64,000 bases of DNA from Polytrichum commune (lineage: Eukaryota > Streptophyta > Polytrichopsida > Polytrichales > Polytrichaceae): NCBI GenBank assembly GCA_950295325.1, contig OX485804.1, forward strand, positions 22,258,001 through 22,322,000, in the 5' to 3' direction. Shown in pieces: positions 5,092-52,298 of the stretch; position 1 is the stretch's first letter, and the number at the start of each line of letters is the position of its first letter. The notes below the pieces were generated by a model. The model was not told the DNA's origin. It was given only the letters and a program-made list of their open reading frames with translations, and did no database searches. Position numbers and translations under genes: made by a program.

Positions 5092-8000
5092 TCAAAGATC
5101 CTTGAAAATGAGTTGGTCTTCAGCTGTCAAGACAAACTCGTGTTTCATAGGGCCAAGCTTTGAGTAATCGTCAAAGCAGCTTGTGTCATCCTTACCCTGC
5201 ATCGCAGACATAAGAGAAGAAGAAAATCTCATCAATGTACAGATTACTTACTGGAAGTGCTTGGTTTGAGGCCAAAAACATTGATGCCACCTAGGTATTT
5301 GACAATGAGAAATTACCGAAACTTTTGGCCGTATGGGTGGAATGTCCTTTTTTCGAATGACTGAATCCCAGTCTGTGCTTTGGAACCATGCATGTGTCTT
5401 GAGGTCCTTCACACCTCCTTTCAAACACCCGAGCCTACCCCACCCCAATCGGTTGCACAGGTTTTAAAGTTTTAGACTGGAGATGTAGATGAAACTTAGG
5501 TGTTTTGTTGAGTGGCGTGTCATTAATTGTGGGTCTAAATGCCACTTTACACTATGGCCGAGGGCCGTGACCATTAAATTATGAGGGCCCTTGAATCTCA
5601 TCTGCGGGCTGCACTCTGCAAAATTGAAGTTGAATGTGGCGTGCTCACATGCCTTTTAGTGTTAAGACATAAGAGATGATCTCTCAACTCATTTCTATTA
5701 TATTAACATCCTATTCACGTGGGCCTTTCCACGATATAACTTACAGTAGACTAGAAGTTGTGGTATTCCAAAGGTGTTAGGGTCTTTAGATTATGTGTCA
5801 TACTCACCTCTTTGAAGTGGGCTTGACACAAAATCTGGTATATCATGAAACAAAATTCATGGTCTACTGGTGGAAACACTAATTTATGCTTCTCTACTCA
5901 TTTCATTTCATGCCATGTAGGTCTTCGTGTAGGTTTTTCATCCATTCAAAACTTCGTTGGACCTGTAGACCCTCAAATGCTAGTGTAAAGTGAAGCCTTG
6001 GGATACAGTAAGTGCCTTTTATAAAATAAATTGTGAGCCAAGGTGAGCTTCAGAGGAATTAGTGTATAGAAGCCCACCGTTTTGTCAGGTCAGCTACTAG
6101 AAGTCTCCGCAGAAGATCCTTGGCACTGCAACGTTCCCGAATAGTTTGTGTCAATAACCGACAACAACCATAGTGAATTATATTGCTCTTAAAAAACATT
6201 GAAAATTATTAAGATTCTACACAATTATAAGTTTTGTCAAGTTTTAATCTACCTTCGTGAGAAATGGCCAGGAAATTGTACTTTCCCACTCAAAATCTTT
6301 TGATACGTGCCAACGGCATCTGCCATGGTGATCCAACATCATTATTACTCTTAAGTTTATTTGGCGATATGGAAATCCATTAATTTATTATCCAATTTGT
6401 GTTGACGCCACATGATATGATAGCTGCGACTTTTATTATATTAGCCTTGCAGCAGTTAGAGAGTTATGATGATGTTGTAAGTTTAAATTACGTCCCAAAG
6501 GAGTCTCACCATCATCATAGAAAGGAGGATAACCAGCTAACATTTCATAGATTAATACTCCAAATGTCCACCTAGCATAACATCAATCAAACCACGTTGC
6601 ATGATTCATTTGTTCATTGGTTGTTGAATGTGATTCGCATGCATCTACTTATTAGTGTTCTTCCACACTTACCAAGTATTTTATATTACTTCAAACGAGT
6701 ATTAGAACGATTTGGCACATATGGTGCTTTTTCCAAACTCTAATATTATGAGCCCTTTGTGTTTTTGATGCAATGTACATTTCATCATGTCTATTAGCAC
6801 TTTTCTTATAAAGAAACAGAGTATATAGCATGACATCATGAAACCGTTAACCACAAAATGGGTTACCAACACTAAAATAAAATACTATTTTGTTGAGTTC
6901 TCGTAATGAAGTAAATCAAATTTACTATATGGTTGTTAGACCAAATAACCAAACCCATATTTGACTCATATCTACCTTTCAAATAGTGTTGTGCTTGAAT
7001 AATGCATGCTAGGTGTGGCCTACAATGAGCCACCCAACTATAGTGGGGGTTACCCAATCAATCATTCAAATGATGTGAGAACCTAGGAGATTTGGAATTT
7101 TTTGGAGGCAAGCACAAGATAACTTCCTTGACTCAATTACGGGAATTAAGAACATCCACCTTGAATGGAGGGTTGTTTTCCAATTGGCTATAGAGACTCT
7201 CATCGTGCATTGCACTAAAATATCTAATTAGTATGGATCATAATTTATCCAAAATTGTATGTGGGGTCAGAAGTGCACACAATAGGGTCACATAACTTAC
7301 GATATATTTTGAGAGCTTGGAATCCCTCCGGATGATCCCAAATTGGTGGATACAGGTTTGGCGAATCAACTCTAAGACTAGTTGAGGTTGATGCAAAATT
7401 TATGTATTTCTAATGACATTTACCAGTCAACAGGCTTGCCGTGACCCTTGTTCAGGATGATTTCAGGTGCAAGATAATCTGGTGTACCTGCATATGACCT
7501 CCATGCGAAATATTAGTAAATTAACCTCCATAGTGCCTGTGGTAAATTGACAATGCGAATATAGTAAATGAAAATAGGGGTAAACAAAACTTGGTTGAAA
7601 TTTTGTAACAACTTACCACACAAAGTGTAGGTTCTGCGATCAATTTGTTTAGCAAACCCAAAATCAGTAATCTTGATGTTTCCCTTCTCATCAAGCAGCA
7701 AGTTCTCAGGCTAGCACAAGAACGAGCACACATGCACACACACACACACACACACACACATTTTGTTTTTGTTTCATTGCTCAATTTCTGATGATCCGAT
7801 GAGAGGACAATTCTTATACTCGAAGCAATCTACTAAAGACTGGAAAATTGGAGAGGGCTTATTGTCACAATGTTTTACTTTTTCATTCTACCATACAAAC
7901 AGTGGCAATTATACGTTTGTGCATTATTTGAGCATCAATTGTTTTGGATATGAATTAGTCACCTTCAAGTCTCTATATATGATGTCCATGTTATGTAAAT

Positions 8001-10225
8001 ACTCAAATGCAAGTAATACTTGAGCTGCATAAAATCTCTGCCACCATCAGAGAATGCACACGTCAGGTTTTCCTATGTAAGATGAAATATTGCATCTGAA
8101 ACACAAACCTGAATCTCATATCTTTTATTATTAGGATTATCTTTTCTTCTGCAAACAGATGATTTTACTTTATTTAACCCACCATTGATGATTCAATCAG
8201 ACTCATGTATGGAGGACCCCAATAAATCAGGGTACCTGTAGAGCCATTTGCAGAGGAATTGATAAACCCAAATATTCCCAGTACGTGGCACACTGAACAC
8301 TTGGGTTAACCCTTGAAGGACCAAGGGGCTCAATGTACGACCTATGTACACAATTTCTACGAGCCCTACCCTGCCTTCAAACATATGTTTTGGTATTTAT
8401 GTGTTTGAAGCTTCACTTAGAATATTATCATTTGTGAGGGAAAAAAATAAAAATACACTCATTTGTGACATTGATGATCAAATGATGAAGTTCGTGTGTG
8501 CATCTAGGGGCACCTGGGTTGTGTACTTAAACACAAATCTTTAATAACATCAAGATACTCAACTGATGTAGAAAGTGCACTTGAAAATAGGTACGGTTGC
8601 TTTTGACACAATAAACTAAAATGCAAGTATGTAGCTCAAATAAACATTCACAGGCATGGAGAAGGCCTATCGGATGCTTAGGGGCTAATAATTTACAATG
8701 TTCTTTATTGTTATTTTTCCATGAAGTTGGTTGTGTAATGTAGGTGGCTTACAGTTGTTTGTTCATCAAAACGACCTGTGCTGCGAAGGTAGGTGAAAAA
8801 CTCCCCCCTACACCACAATGCACCCGATCATTATCAAAAACAAATAAAACAGTGGTACACTACCTTAGTAGCACTTGTTGGGTTTTGAAGATGAGTGACA
8901 CAAGGCAACTTCAATTCAGACGTACTGATTGATCAGAATTTAGAAATATTTTGTGATATTGTAGGTTAATTACGTACCCGCACACATACTCTATGATGAG
9001 ATGCACGCACTGATCATCCTGGCAGTATCCAAGCAAATTGACAACAAACGGGTGTGATATCCTCGCTAAGATAGACTTCTCTTGCTTCACGTGCAATACC
9101 TGTTGTGATGCTCTCCAAGGGATCAGCTTAAAGCATTCTTAAGCATGTGGAAGAAGATTCTCTTTCTATTCTAGCTTCAAGCTTGAAATTTCCAAGAATG
9201 AAGTTGTCAAGTGGTAAGCTCCCATTAGTCGACATGCCCTAAAGCCTTCAACCATCTACCTAGATTTTCAAGAGGAGAGGTGTGCCCCAACTGGAATCAT
9301 TCTTAGGTTATCTGGGTACCCTACCCACATACGCTCCTCGAGAAAATCCTAACTTAACTTATCATCCTCCAGAAATGATCATAAATTGCCCTGGATTTCG
9401 GAGGCTTTCGATTGACTGCCTATTATGGAGACATTTAGGTATTACACACACATCGATGCATACTACGAGTTGGGAAACCTAAGAAATAGATGTTAATTGA
9501 CAAGCCCTAAAGCCTTCTCCCACCTACCGAGATTCTTTGAAGAGGTGTGCCCAAATTGGAGTCATTCTTAGGTCATTCCAATACCCTAAGAATGATTCCA
9601 TTTGCACCCAGAAACTAAATGGGATAATCCAAAAAATGTGAAGGAAACTTAATATCCTTCAACCTATAATAAGTGCATTGGATTTCAGAGGCCCTTTTTT
9701 TTATTGACTGATTGGTACGAATAAATACAGGTCTCACGCACACAAACGCATGATTCGAGTTGGAAAGCTAAGAAAAAAATAGTTACCCACCACCACTGCC
9801 ACGTGGAAGGAAGAGGAATAACAGATAAAGCAGGACACAAAGTTGGGTGTCCTTTACCTGTTTGGTTTTTACGATGGAGGCCTTGGACAAAGATTTAGTG
9901 GCGCAAACTTGTCCTGTAGGAATGTAATGTGCAATATGCACGCGGCCAAAACTTCCCGTCCCCAATATGGGGCCCAACTTGAAATCCGAAAACTTGCAAC
10001 CTTCCAACCAGACCTACAAAAGCAATTAAGCCCTCCACGGAGTTAAGTAAATCGCAATCAATCACCGCTGCCGTGCCATGAGGACGATTTAACAATGATG
10101 CAAAAAATTGGTTTGTGCAGCATGCTGGAAATGTTTGAAGGAGTGGTAACCTTCTTTTGGGATGGCTCGGGGTCTCCGGAGCCGGAGGAGACGGATTTGG
10201 ACTTGGAGAAAAGCCTCCCAAACAT
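5092..10225 (-). CDS. Protein kinase A catalytic-subunit homologue (AGC kinase), 12 exons, 348 aa
   Basis: Seen: minus-strand exons at 10151-10225, 9858-10013, 8978-9099, 8864-8924, 7963-8037, 7617-7710, 7424-7487, 6510-6571, 6253-6319, 6078-6125, 5317-5434 and 5092-5196. They total 1047 nt and every phase fits. Motifs: Gly loop LGTGSFGRV (42-50), ATP lysine in CATK (K65), alpha-C glutamate in QEKSIL (E84), YRDLKPEN (159-166), DFGFAK (179-184), activation loop [16 protein letters not shown] with T192 equal to PKA T197, [27 protein letters not shown], and a C-tail with FDDY (322-325). Length is close to the 350 residues of animal PKA-C. Known: PKA-C is released from its regulatory subunit by cAMP and phosphorylates Arg-Arg-x-Ser sites. 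Odd: the Gly-Gly-Glu segment reads GTSE (118-121), the loop Trp is Tyr191, and the C-terminus is FKDL, not FxxF. There is no N-terminal myristoylation glycine. The first exon ([12 protein letters not shown]...) is the least certain; another donor about 20 codons further on also keeps frame. Confidence 0.93.
5541..5997. mobile_element. MITE-like element inside a kinase intron
   Basis: It lies within the intron between kinase exons 10 and 11 (5435-6077). Its ends are an imperfect inverted repeat: GCCACTTTACACTA then GAGGG at the left, and CCCTC then TAGTGTAAAGTGAAGCC at the right. A related copy with the same ends and interior blocks lies at about 23452-23845. No transposase ORF and no convincing target duplication are visible, so the superfamily is unknown. 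Confidence 0.7.
7734..7760. repeat. (CA)n microsatellite in a kinase intron
   Basis: About 13 CA units lie in the intron between kinase exons 5 and 6, roughly 25 bp upstream (in gene direction) of the PENLLL exon's acceptor. On the gene strand this reads as a TG/GT run just before the 3' splice site. Confidence 0.9.
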
Positions 10226-15094: not shown

Positions 15095-21728
<6,634 letters not shown>

Positions 21729-46322: not shown

Positions 46323-46859
46323 AGTTGGAAGAGTTGGTTTTGTGGAGCTTAGGAGAGGAGGGATTGAGGGAAGGGAAGGGAAGGCAAGTGGGGGGGGGGG
46401 GGGGGTCCCATGAGTGGCGGGGGGATGCGCAAGAGGCGGGCGCACAACACATGAGGGCAGGGCTGGGGCCGCCACGTGCGCTGCATGGCCCCCAGCCTCC
46501 CTCTCTCTCTCTCTCTCTCTCTCGCCCTTGGATGGATGCGATGGCCATTCCCTCCCCTTCTCCCCCCGTACTCCCCGCGCCCCCTTTGCGTGCCCCCCCC
46601 CCCGGTCCCGCCCCTCCCTTTCCCAGCTCGCCCGCGCGCTCCCTTCTTCGTCATCTCTCTCTCTCCACCTGAATGTGTTGCAGCTTCATCGACGAAAATC
46701 GCTCCACACACCAGCAGCGTCAATTACACGGCACGAGAACGGCGTCGATTGCGTGCGGTGCTGTTCCGTGGATCCGGCCATGGCTGTCGGCTGACGGGAT
46801 TCGCGCTGCTGCAGGAGGTGACGACGCCACGTGAGGCTAGGATTTGCATTGTGACGACC
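46323..46859 (+). promoter_or_regulatory. MYB promoter / 5' UTR region
   Basis: The composition changes sharply here: purine-rich with a G-run (46391-46406), then a (CT)n tract of about ten units (46500-46523) and C-rich DNA. CT tracts close to start sites are common in plant core promoters and 5' UTRs. An ORF open in the MYB frame runs through part of this region, but it is low-complexity (Pro/Ser/Leu) and unlike any MYB N-terminus. No TATA box is certain. Confidence 0.5.
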
Positions 46860-49800
46860 ATGGGCAGGGCGCCATGCTGCGAGAAGGACAGCGTCAAGCG
46901 AGGGCCCTGGACACCCGAGGAGGATACCAAGCTGCTTGCCTGCATCGCGCAGCACGGGACTGGCAGCTGGCGGACACTGCCTAAGAAAGCTGGTATACTT
47001 ACACAGCCGGGGCCCCGAGTCTCTAATTCATCATACAGCTCCGTGGAGTCACTGGGAAAAACTACTACGTATACTCCTGCTGCTGCTGCTACTACTACTA
47101 CTACAACAACTACAGAAGTCTAAGAAAGTCATGACAAAGTAGGACAGGTGAAGGGGGGGGGGGGGGACTTGGTCTCAAGCGCTGATGTTCAGACGTTGAT
47201 TAAGGTCGAGTTTCGAGAAGAAATGCGGTGAAAAGTTTAGAGGCATGTTGATGACTTGTGAGGAGTGCTGCAAGGGGAGTAGGGCCGTAGTATGTGAGCT
47301 GGAAGACTGTATTGGTTGCTTGAGGCTCCTCAGTAGGAATCTGTGTAGCTCCTGAAGAGTGTTGCAGTGCATCCACCAGAATAGCTGATATTCATCTTCT
47401 CAATTTCATGCAGCGTGCAACCTTGCGAGCAAATGTGAAGCAAAATTATTAAATCCTTTACGAGAACAAGACCGAGTGTTCCTGGTGCATTGAGTGCATG
47501 TCTCGATCGCGAGTTCGCAAAAGTGATAATTCGAGACAAACGCTCAGGAAAGTTTGTCTGTCAGTCTGTCCTGTGGCTCGGTGGAGCTGGAGTATGTGTT
47601 ACAAGTGCGAGCAATAATTAGAGGTGAAAGAAACCTGATTAGTGTCAGAAGTGTCATTCAAGTGTGGAGAGGATGCTCACAGCTTCTCATCCACTTCCAA
47701 TTGAACAACATTAAGCGTAGCACACGCAAGCCAATATATCACCGTATCACGAGATAGCGGCTATGTACTGCTTGTTATCAATTGCCGACCTGAATTGGAT
47801 AATATGATCGCGACTGGAATTAAAACAAGAATGATATGAGAAACTGGATGGATTTCACAGGATTGCAGAGGTGTGGAAAGAGCTGTAGGCTGCGCTGGAC
47901 AAACTACCTGCGGCCGGACCTCAAGCATGGACGCTTCACCGATCATGAGGAACAACTGATTGTCAACCTTCATGCAGCTCTAGGCAGCCGGTCAGATTCG
48001 CGAACCTTTAACCAATTAACCTGCAGATCAGACCTCGTCATTACTTTCTTCTTGAAACAAGGTTCATAATCATCATCAGCATGCCCCTGCCTTTTAGACT
48101 AGTCTGTCTGTGTGTGCTCTAATCCATTGGAATTTAGTCGCACCTTTTAATAATTATCATCCATCTTCTATTTCTCCATCAGTGTTTACATTTGTTCTAC
48201 CATCTTAGCGTTCTATGACCACCTGAGGTTGTTAGGCTTCCTCCGTACACTGATTCAATCCTCCTCCATGCTAACATTTTGCCGCTACTTTCAGCACAAT
48301 TGCTGATTATATTGCAAGTGGCAGGACGTCCTGTAGTGAGAAACATGAGACACGGGCTACTGTGCTGGCCAAGTCTACAATACCTGGCGAATACTTAATG
48401 AATGTCCTTTAGAAACGGGATCTGGACTCTCAGTCGATAGATAACGGTTGTCCTCGTAACGCTCGTGTTTAATTAACCAGTAGAGTGCTCCAAAAAGACG
48501 CACGTCATACGCTCTTTAAGAACTATGACCTCTCTTCCAATGGATTGTCATTGGCTCTTGTGAATTAGCTCAGACTGCTAAAGTTCACGAGGATGTGCTG
48601 GTGACAATGTCATGTACGCTTGTACTTTTGAGCATCATATAAATGGATCAGCGACTTGTCAACAGGTTTGGCTAAGGAGTTGCACTCCCCGTGGTCTAAC
48701 TTCGCGTTTCTTAACGCAAGCTCGGACGATTAAAAGAAACTGCATTCTGTTTCTTTGATCTCTTTTTTTAGAGAGCACCTAAGTAGATCAGGCGCTTATC
48801 AAGAGCTTTTTAGGGGCTTCTAAGGGAATTCGATTCTCACTGCCTTTTTTAACGCAAGGTCAACGATTAAAAAAAAGAAAAACTCCATTCTGTTTCTCCT
48901 TTTTGAGCACCGAAGTAGACCAGCGACTTCTCAAGAGCTTTTGGATCTTACCCGTGTCTTAACTGGTCGGACGAAGAAATTTCCATTGCCGTATTTGACA
49001 ACTTGAACGACGCAAATCTAGATTAGCATTCTATCAAAATCTCCTTAACGAATTCCCTTTTACATGTTCGTTACTCCCCGTTTTGAGAAGAAATTCGAAG
49101 GTAGGAATCAACCTTCCACTCCTTTGCTCTTGTGTACAGCTCGACTCCGTGGCATTTTGCAATATCCTCGTAGCCAATACGTTAACCATGCTCTCACTCT
49201 TTTTCTGGTCAAAGTAAGACTTGTTATTTCGGTTCTTTAGATTATGAGCAGCACATATGTATGTTGCCACCTTGTTCAACAACTGTTCAGCAAAGACGAT
49301 CTCGTCGTAAATTTCTTAGAGCAGAGAGGATGTCTCAGGAGTGACATTCTCATGAACTCAATTTTGCACCCTTGCTCGACTTCGAACCGAGAAAGAGATG
49401 AACTGCTGAGACGCAACGTTCTACAACACTTTTGTGAAGGTGCAATAGGAGCTTTAATTCAGTTAAGGACAATTAGATCCTTAACATGGACACTGTATGT
49501 CAATTGAACTTTGATTGGTTTAAACAGTTCAATTCAAATACCTTCAGGTAGAACTAAGGATCATCCCAAATAAAGAGGTAAACATTCTACTGTCGGTAGT
49601 ATATTCCATTAAGATATAAACGTCCGGCAGCCGGCCTGAGCATCCCTAGACAAATAGTTACTGAGGGGCAGCGTCCATGGGTCCATCTGCTTTGAATATT
49701 TTCTTTTACAAATCTGACCACATATCTGAAAAATTTATGAGGCCAGATTTCCTTAGATCTGGCTGTAGCTACCGCACAAGGCTTCTCTCGCATCCCAAAT

Positions 49801-52298
49801 TCTTTCATGGCCCCTGCTATTTTCAGGGAGGCGAGAATGGAGGATCCACCTTCCTTCCTCTCTGTGATAGACAATCTGGCCTCATCGATATTTCTTGGAT
49901 CTGGCCTCCATTTCTCACAACGCTACTTTCTGTCATCATAGAACTTCCCTCAGCTCCTGTCAGCTAATTCATTGTTGGAGTAGGGGCTGGGTAGGATTGG
50001 GTTTTTTCCGTGGGCTAGTATGGAATATATACGGTTTTAAGATGATCGTAGACCAGCTCAAATCATTCACATGACTGTTGATTGTTCTGGAGCTCCTATA
50101 ACAGAACGATGCAGGTTATATAGTTGTGATCCCAGCACACATTTAAAAGTTCTTGTTGATGGTTACGCCATGAAAATTGTCTACAGAAATCATTCATGAA
50201 TTCGAATAATTCATGCCATGTTTTCAGACACACGAGGTTCATAAGCAATGTTTGGATTGAAGCAGAATTTCAAAATAACATTCTGTGAGTAAATGCTGCA
50301 CATGTTGCAAGTGGTGTATATAATATTCCAATTTTGACATAGTGCACTCGGAGTTTTCCAAGTAACATGATCCATATCAGATAGCAAATGTGTTATGCAC
50401 ACCTCGATTTCCCTACAATCTGGTTGCATTTGACTATAAGACATCGACATCGTAGCTGACATTCTAGATTACCGAAGTAGGTAAGTTCATTGAAAGGGTC
50501 AGAACTGTGGAAATTTATTTCAAGGAGGTCAGTTGAGGGTTATTTTGAATGTTTCATTTTGAGTGATATTTCTTGATAAGCTCACCAGTGACCAGTTTTC
50601 ACATCATTTTTTTGTGAGCCAGTGACTTGCTTATGAGGACGAGAAATGGCTGTAATTCCGATTTTGGAACCTGGGCGTGCAGGTGGTCTCTCATTGCTGC
50701 ACAATTGCCTGGACGAACGGACAATGATGTGAAGAATTACTGGAATACGCGCCTCAAGAAGAAATTGTGTGAAATGGGCATCGATCCCATTACGCACAAG
50801 CCCATCTCCCAGCTTCTAGCAGATCTTGCTGGCAGTATGGCACTCCCTAAAGGGGGCGAAATTGCTGAGGCTGCACTTGGATGTTTCAAGGATGACATGC
50901 TAAATGTCCTCATGAGGAAGCGACCTGATTGGCAATTGGAAGGTTCTAATATTGCAGTGCCACCCCCAACACATGGCATCTCAATAGGGCGACAATCATG
51001 GGATATGGTTGCTGGCCCTCGGGCTTTTGTCTCCCAACCAAAGTCTGTCATGACAAGCACATACAACTCAAGCGTCAATGAGCAATGTAACCCAAGGTTG
51101 ACCAATCAAAATCTTCAAGTCGATGCCGTTGTCCAGAAGATCAAGTATAGTTTGTCAAGAGCTGTTCAATCGAATGAGGTAACCGAGTTCAATACAAATG
51201 TTACACCATTCTTATTTATTGTACACCATTTTGAGAATTAAAATGTTTTCACAGTTGAATTTATATTTTCTCAGTAGGATGTCTGGTTGATGTCTGATGA
51301 TCCAGCAAGAAAATGAAGCTACTAATCGTTGCGATCTATGATGCGAATAATTATAAGTACACTATATCTCGTTGTTGACATATAACTTTCATCTGTATAC
51401 AAATATGTTTCGAATTCAAGGTTGACACTCTCAATCATACTCCGCTAATGAGACAAACATGGAAAAAAAAGGAGATTCCAGTCAGGATAACATCTTATCT
51501 TACCAACCTTTATTGCAACTTAACATTCTTATAGGTCCAACTTGGTGCGGATATCATGAAGCCAAGGGAAGAATCATTGTCTCAAAATATGGCAGTCATG
51601 AGTGGACGATATTATCGAGGAGAGGGAGGAAGTCCCGGTAATTCACCACAACCTCTGAATCAATCATTGATTGGAAAGAAAATCTGAATAAAATTTTATT
51701 GCATACTCCCAAACTCAAACGTTTTTGTCTATTTCCTACAATGTCCCTGGGACTACCAAGAAAATGCAGAACCGCACAAATTAAATTTCTCCCAATGGTG
51801 GAAAGCCAGATGTAACTCAACTTGCTTCTTCAGCGACATGTAAGGATATGATAATCAACAGAATTTTGATAATCTGACATCACTGTTTATGCACTCATCA
51901 TTGCTTGGAAGGAGGCCTGGCTATCTCATGAATATATGTAGCTTACATAAAATTCATAACATCATAAATCTGTGATGTTGGCAGGTATGGCAGTAGGAGG
52001 AGAAAATTGCACAATCCAAACTCTACAAATGCCATGCATGGTTGATACACCTCAGATGTTTACCAATCTTTTGTGTGATCAACAAGAAACAAGCACCAGA
52101 AGCCATTGCCAAGAGAGTCCGAGCAGCAACACCCATGTTCCCACAAGCTGCGAAATGGAACCTTGGAGCCCAAGTCCAAGTGGCAGTAGCTGCAGTAACA
52201 CGAGCCTTGTCAATGGTGATGTGTCAGGGCTTGAAAAGGTGCTCAATTCAGACGTCTTTTTGTGGGACTTCTCAGAGCTCGGCTCCATAATGAGTTAG
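46860..52298 (+). CDS. MYB80: R2R3-MYB transcription factor of the MYB80 (MS188/MYB103) group, 5 exons, 391 aa
   Basis: Seen: exons at 46860-46992, 47861-47990, 50683-51178, 51535-51637 and 51985-52298. They total 1176 nt with matching phases. The protein starts [21 protein letters not shown]2 has W17, W37 and W57; R3 has F in the first position, then W89 and W108. The two introns interrupting the repeats are at the usual R2R3-MYB positions. After the repeats come GIDPITHKP (120-128) and [13 protein letters not shown] (149-161), a block typical of MYB80. The C-terminus is acidic/aromatic (FLWDFSELG). Known: in angiosperms MYB80 drives tapetum and pollen-wall genes in anthers. Inferred: in this plant, sporangial tapetum and spore-wall control. 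Exon 4 is needed to restore frame between exons 3 and 5. MYB35/TDF1 is the nearest alternative. Confidence 0.92.
47075..47110. repeat. Trinucleotide microsatellites in MYB intron 1
   Basis: Adjacent (CTG)n and (CTA)n tracts lie in the first intron (46993-47860). A pure G run of about 14 bases follows near 47153. Confidence 0.85.
48620..48960. repeat. Degenerate tandem repeat in MYB intron 2
   Basis: About two and a half units of roughly 130-140 bp. Each contains a GAGCA...AGTAGATCAGCGACTT-like block, TCAAGAGCTTTT, TTAACGCAAG, and ATTCTGTTTCT. The repeat lies in the long second intron (47991-50682, 2.7 kb). The remainder of that intron shows nothing I recognise. Confidence 0.75.

Follow-up and report, generated by a model that had tools for sequence, protein, structure and literature searches.

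Protein kinase A (PKA), the cyclic AMP (cAMP)-dependent protein kinase, is an old family, and the systems closest to the gene considered here are mammalian C-alpha, yeast TPK1 and a reported liverwort enzyme. With regard to plants, the available parts of three papers state that typical PKA is lacking (PMC3499706), that kinases dependent on cyclic nucleotides are still controversial (PMC6174285), and that the PKA- and PKG-like kinases of streptophytes are much diverged (PMC4143559); plant PKA genes are not mentioned in the available parts of PMC12237933 and PMC9225146. Expression of a cAMP-dependent kinase in the antheridia of Marchantia is described in a recent paper, taken to be Higo et al. 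2016, that is cited in the available part of PMC5159850. Here a gene in a 64-kb stretch of plant DNA (contig C2:22258001-22322000; this whole stretch is called the window) was analyzed together with its relatives and partners in the same genome (407.8 Mb in 64 contigs). This gene, kinase C1, is very likely to encode a genuine PKA catalytic subunit. In addition to a second catalytic gene, a regulatory subunit and exons resembling the cAMP enzyme CAPE were found in the genome. Because a liverwort PKA had already been reported, kinase C1 is a new member of a known family, and its kind is known. The names kinase C1 and kinase C2 denote the two catalytic genes and not contigs, which are always labeled as such.

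Kinase C1 occupies the minus strand, its ATG lying at position 10225 of the window and its TGA ending at 5092, which are exactly the limits given in a preliminary description of the stretch; the 12 exons join in frame, also as described there, across 11 introns that are all of the GT-AG type. Neither a frameshift nor a stop codon is found in the exons, and all splice sites are intact. The preliminary length of 348 residues was within two residues of the revised model, which gives 346. A first model (344 residues) had used a weak GTTTCG donor for exon 11, which was superseded by GTAATT six bases downstream; since the latter is canonical, occurs at the corresponding position of the paralogue and closes a two-residue gap relative to bovine PKA, the protein is taken to have 346 residues. 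The stretch before the aligned kinase core is just 34 residues long, and no cyclic-nucleotide domain is fused to the kinase. The 344-residue version served as query for the phmmer search of solved structures in PDB, the NCBIfam and Pfam scans and the protein search of the genome.

The Pfam kinase profile PF00069 matches kinase C1 with 235.8 bits, and the NCBIfam scan returned bacterial kinase families only, all far under their cut-offs. The catalytic residues K65, E84, D159, N164 and D177 are kept, and the motifs named in the preliminary description, YRDLKPEN, TLCGTP (T190) and FDDY (F320-Y323), are all present, the paralogue having FEDY at the last of them. In bovine numbering, identity to PKA extends to the glycine loop, K72, E91, D166, K168, N171, D184, T197, E208 and R280, and also to E127, E170, E230, R133, R194, K213, Y247, L277 and K285. 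Among these, E127, E170 and E230 (E120, E163 and E223 in kinase C1) are presumably the residues that recognize the arginines of RRx(S/T) substrates, and R194, K213, Y247, L277 and K285 are taken to be contact positions for the regulatory subunit. Bovine R134, W196, E203 and F239 are replaced by S, Y, D and Y, respectively. At the hydrophobic-motif position, which is the chain end, kinase C1 has FKDL and its paralogue FVEL, with the first Phe kept; we assume that the yeast PKA chain, too, ends in Phe.

Mammalian PKA catalytic subunits ranked first among solved structures (370 bits, E = 7.4e-110), followed by yeast TPK1 (337 bits) and PKG1 (269 bits). Within the kinase core, 163 of 291 positions (56%) are identical to bovine PKA and 146 of 291 (50%) to TPK1, compared with 129/290 for PKG1 and 117/287 for human S6K1; for kinases of the same genome the values are 109/254 (S6K), 97/222 and 95/221 (two AGCVIII-like kinases) and 99/230 (a PKG-like kinase). 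The sequences of these four in the tree are tblastn pieces (at least 24 bits, one strand) and not gene models, and "AGCVIII-like" is a working label of our own. The level of 56% does not fit the picture of substantial divergence drawn in the available part of PMC4143559. In the final maximum-likelihood tree of 10 sequences, kinase C1, kinase C2, bovine PKA and TPK1 were separated from the other six with a support of 94.2/82 (SH-like approximate likelihood ratio test, SH-aLRT/ultrafast bootstrap). Five constrained trees were compared by the approximately unbiased (AU) test and also by the Shimodaira-Hasegawa (SH) test, and the tree constrained to the PKA grouping equals the best tree (AU 0.726). 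Structure ranking, identity, this split and the conserved residues all support the PKA catalytic-subunit homologue that the preliminary description had proposed.

The protein search of the genome scored 117 of 926 candidates, so that the number of kinase matches is a lower bound. Among the candidates scored, exon matches of more than 60% identity to kinase C1 were found at one place outside the window (contig C4:14.906-14.914 Mb). This paralogue, kinase C2, has 12 exons (the first picked by eye) with the same lengths as those of kinase C1, and its product of 346 residues is identical at 236 of them (68%). Over 346 codons, differences between the two genes amount to 0.286, 0.147 and 0.578 at the first, second and third codon positions, and the nonsynonymous divergence (dN) is 0.237 with synonymous divergence (dS) saturated; the two genes are therefore read as old duplicates kept under purifying selection.

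The regulatory subunit with two cyclic-nucleotide domains that the preliminary description had suggested looking for in the same genome was found on contig C5. All 17 candidates for the cyclic-nucleotide-binding profile PF00027 were scored and gave 10 matches. Of these, four were placed, in pairs, in the regulatory gene and in a PKG-like locus; the matches ranked first and fourth by E-value are 2 kb from each other on contig C5. Seven exons of the regulatory gene (contig C5:223963-228755) give 295 residues with two PF00027 stretches, which represent most of the subunit. In PDB, its best matches were 5kbf (232 bits), which we take to be a Plasmodium structure, and RI-beta (221 bits), then RI-alpha, with RII lower (188 bits); cGMP-dependent kinases reached at best 177 bits (5ezr and 4rz7), and PKG1 138. 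The segment RRTGVSAE aligns to RRGGVSAE of RI-beta as an RI-like pseudosubstrate whose P0 residue is neither Ser nor Thr. Both cyclic-nucleotide pockets read FGELALLxxxPRAATV, in which Ala at this place presumably marks selectivity for cAMP over cGMP. Among the matches listed in the open-licence literature searched, none named a land-plant PKA regulatory subunit, and this subunit is the freshest part of the find.

Two further loci were observed in the course of these searches. The sole match to the dimerisation/docking profile PF02197 (RIIa) among 10 candidates scored genome-wide is not at the regulatory gene but at contig C3:40418010-40418108, inside an open frame of 217 residues from the first Met; the frame presumably resembles flagellar proteins of the ropporin/radial-spoke RSP11 type and fits a plant with flagellated sperm. 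At the PKG-like kinase (contig C1:6510677-6530854), two cyclic-nucleotide-binding domains are encoded upstream of the kinase exons and on their strand, probably as parts of one protein; the PKG label is weak, as a loop fragment scored 107.7 bits with PKG1 and 104 bits with PKA, and the joined pieces put PKA first.

CAPE consists of an N-terminal phosphodiesterase and a C-terminal adenylyl cyclase. Its reported distribution covers bryophytes, lycophytes, ferns, cycads, ginkgo, Coleochaetaceae and Characeae, every one of which has motile sperm, and leaves out Klebsormidiaceae, Zygnematophyceae and angiosperms; non-photosynthetic stramenopiles have CAPE-like proteins as well, which are said to have an independent origin (available part of PMC8115329). 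In the present genome, both of the two candidates scored for the phosphodiesterase profile PF00233 were matches, located at 45.2627-45.2641 Mb of contig C3, and two class III cyclase-like pieces follow on the same strand 9.6-11.8 kb downstream. Joined, the cyclase pieces match PF00211 with 37.4 bits, nearly all from the second piece. The phosphodiesterase and cyclase pieces thus stand in CAPE order, and we infer a single transcript. The presence of CAPE-like exons suggests a sperm-bearing streptophyte as the host.

Several observations weigh against this interpretation. The splicing of kinase C1 is predicted from reading frame, paralogue and homology, and the last Phe of the chain is changed to Leu in both plant copies. 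A first tree, which contained three single-exon kinases of the genome (contigs C3:8.17, C5:18.86 and C1:66.19; presumed non-AGC) and an 84-residue PKG1 fragment, paired kinases C1 and C2 but placed other kinases between them and bovine PKA, with low support; for the final tree, these three were dropped, the full PKG1 kinase domain replaced the fragment, and TPK1 was added. The reference kinases taken from the genome are partial exon pieces in the final tree as well, in which grouping with the AGCVIII-like kinases (AU 0.178) or with the PKG-like kinase of the genome (AU 0.159) was not rejected, and grouping with PKG1 was narrowly not rejected by SH alone (0.056). As for the partners, the first cyclase piece by itself has no Pfam match, and no dimerisation/docking domain was found within about 7 kb upstream of the regulatory gene (plus strand, small profile over contig C5:216501-230000; best E 0.54), an absence that is provisional because the start of the gene has not been located.

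Among the alternatives, the most probable, though still unlikely, is that kinase C1 is of the PKG type or is a derived PKA free of cAMP control, either constitutive or under another regulator. This would be consistent with the Tyr and Asp at bovine positions 196 and 203 and with the terminal Leu of kinase C1; however, yeast TPK1, whose sequence was verified, carries the same Tyr and Asp, the five putative contact positions for the regulatory subunit are kept, the kinase lacks the fused cyclic-nucleotide domain, and the genome holds a PKA regulatory subunit with an intact pseudosubstrate and cAMP-type pockets. In addition, grouping with PKG1 was rejected by AU (0.031).

It is much less probable that kinase C1 belongs to a different class of plant AGC kinases (AGCVIII or S6K) with a likeness to PKA, although the AGCVIII grouping survives the AU test and a review, in its available part, denies plants a typical PKA. 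The AGCVIII signature is a DFD loop together with an insertion between DFD and APE (available part of PMC3499706), whereas kinase C1 has DFG, a DFG-to-APE stretch of 25 residues as in bovine PKA and an FDDY C-tail; with DFG and without the insertion, it is excluded from AGCVIII by anatomy. Its identity to bovine PKA (56%) also exceeds that to the AGCVIII-like and S6K kinases of the genome (about 43%), and the S6K grouping was rejected (AU 0.022), the S6K pieces of the genome having human S6K1 as their best match. The AGC tree contemplated in the preliminary description thus favored PKA over S6K and PKG1, and the AGCVIII class was set aside by anatomy and not by AU.

A pseudogene or untranscribed relic is very improbable in view of the uninterrupted exons, the intact splice sites and the constraint visible in the codon-position pattern of divergence from kinase C2. 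It is equally improbable that the gene is foreign DNA of fungal or animal origin, whether a contaminant or a recent transfer: the gene is of a kind typical of those groups, but it lies within chromosome-size contig C2, on which kinase matches extend past 69 Mb, its old paralogue on contig C4 (59 Mb) has the identical exon layout, and the partner genes are on contigs C5 (53 Mb) and C3 (59 Mb).

As a genuine PKA catalytic subunit, kinase C1 is probably gated by cAMP and plausibly acts in sperm. The RRTGVSAE segment of the regulatory subunit would sit in the catalytic cleft of kinase C1 or C2 until cAMP made by CAPE fills the two RAATV pockets and the kinase is released; the freed catalytic subunit would then phosphorylate RRx(S/T) targets, and the phosphodiesterase domain of CAPE, together with phosphatases, would reset the system. 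The site of action may be spermatogenesis or sperm motility (antheridia and sperm), a role proposed because of the published distribution of CAPE and the cited report of an antheridial PKA in Marchantia. A more specific and rather speculative possibility is that the regulatory subunit lost or never had a dimerisation/docking domain, forming a 1:1 holoenzyme without AKAP anchoring that is fed by the cyclase-phosphodiesterase fusion, and that this module was passed on along with swimming sperm and disappeared together with them in flowering plants.

Table 1. Predicted structure of the kinase C1 gene; positions are those of the window
Feature	Position	Strand	Basis
PKA catalytic-subunit gene C1 (very likely), 12 exons, 346 residues	5092..10225	-	spliced model, PDB phmmer, Pfam PF00069
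Exon 1: start codon and N-tail	10151..10225	-	spliced model; length 75, as in proposed paralogue exon 1
Exon 2: glycine loop GTGSFGRV, ATP lysine K65	9858..10013	-	spliced model, residue comparison
Exon 3: helix C glutamate E84	8978..9099	-	spliced model, residue comparison
Exon 4: E120 (PKA E127)	8753..8807	-	spliced model, residue comparison
Exon 5: YRDLK, catalytic D159	7963..8037	-	spliced model, residue comparison
Exon 6: PEN, DFG, activation-loop T190	7617..7710	-	spliced model, residue comparison
Exon 7: GTPDYLAPE	7424..7487	-	spliced model, residue comparison
Exon 8: E223 (PKA E230)	6510..6571	-	spliced model, residue comparison
Exon 9	6253..6319	-	spliced model
Exon 10: ends within R273 codon (PKA R280)	6078..6125	-	spliced model, residue comparison
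Exon 11: ends at GTAATT donor	5317..5434	-	revised model; donor common to paralogue
Exon 12: FDDY, C-terminal FKDL, stop	5092..5196	-	spliced model, residue comparison

Elsewhere in the window, pieces of a DEAD-box RNA helicase were detected on the minus strand (15336-15911 and 17799-18416); for the second, DDX17 and DBP2 are the nearest solved structures. Two matches to the Myb_DNA-binding profile, both on the plus strand (46455-47120, profile positions 1-31; 50618-51238, positions 22-45 of 46), are perhaps separate or split Myb domains. Over positions 1-64000, ARAGORN (bacterial code) found no tRNA, and no Rfam family reached its gathering threshold.

The joint presence in one genome of two catalytic genes, a regulatory gene and CAPE-like exons represents a testable pathway and a candidate effector of plant cAMP, and it predicts a common pattern of retention and loss for PKA-C, PKA-R and CAPE among streptophytes that have motile sperm and those that do not. 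Compared with known systems, kinase C1 resembles mammalian C-alpha and yeast TPK1 in its catalytic residues, TLCGTP, arginine-binding glutamates, FDDY tail and the separate regulatory subunit in the genome. Unlike C-alpha, it has no Gly after the start Met and is thus predicted to lack a myristoylation site, and it shares Tyr and Asp at bovine positions 196 and 203 with the yeast enzyme and not with the bovine one. At 56% (bovine) and 50% (TPK1) identity, it differs from PKA catalytic subunits in ending with FKDL rather than with the FxxF that closes the PKA chain (available part of PMC3499706). The PKG-like kinase of the genome is likewise an AGC kinase near PKA and PKG, and kinase C1 differs from it in having no cyclic-nucleotide domains. 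As a difference from RI-beta and 5kbf, an RIIa-type dimerisation/docking domain has so far not been found in the regulatory subunit, which resembles both in its two cyclic-nucleotide domains and RI-beta also in its pseudosubstrate. The antheridial cAMP-dependent protein kinase of Marchantia polymorpha, compared here by its description in the source available, is likewise a PKA from a non-seed plant that bears sperm and has CAPE.

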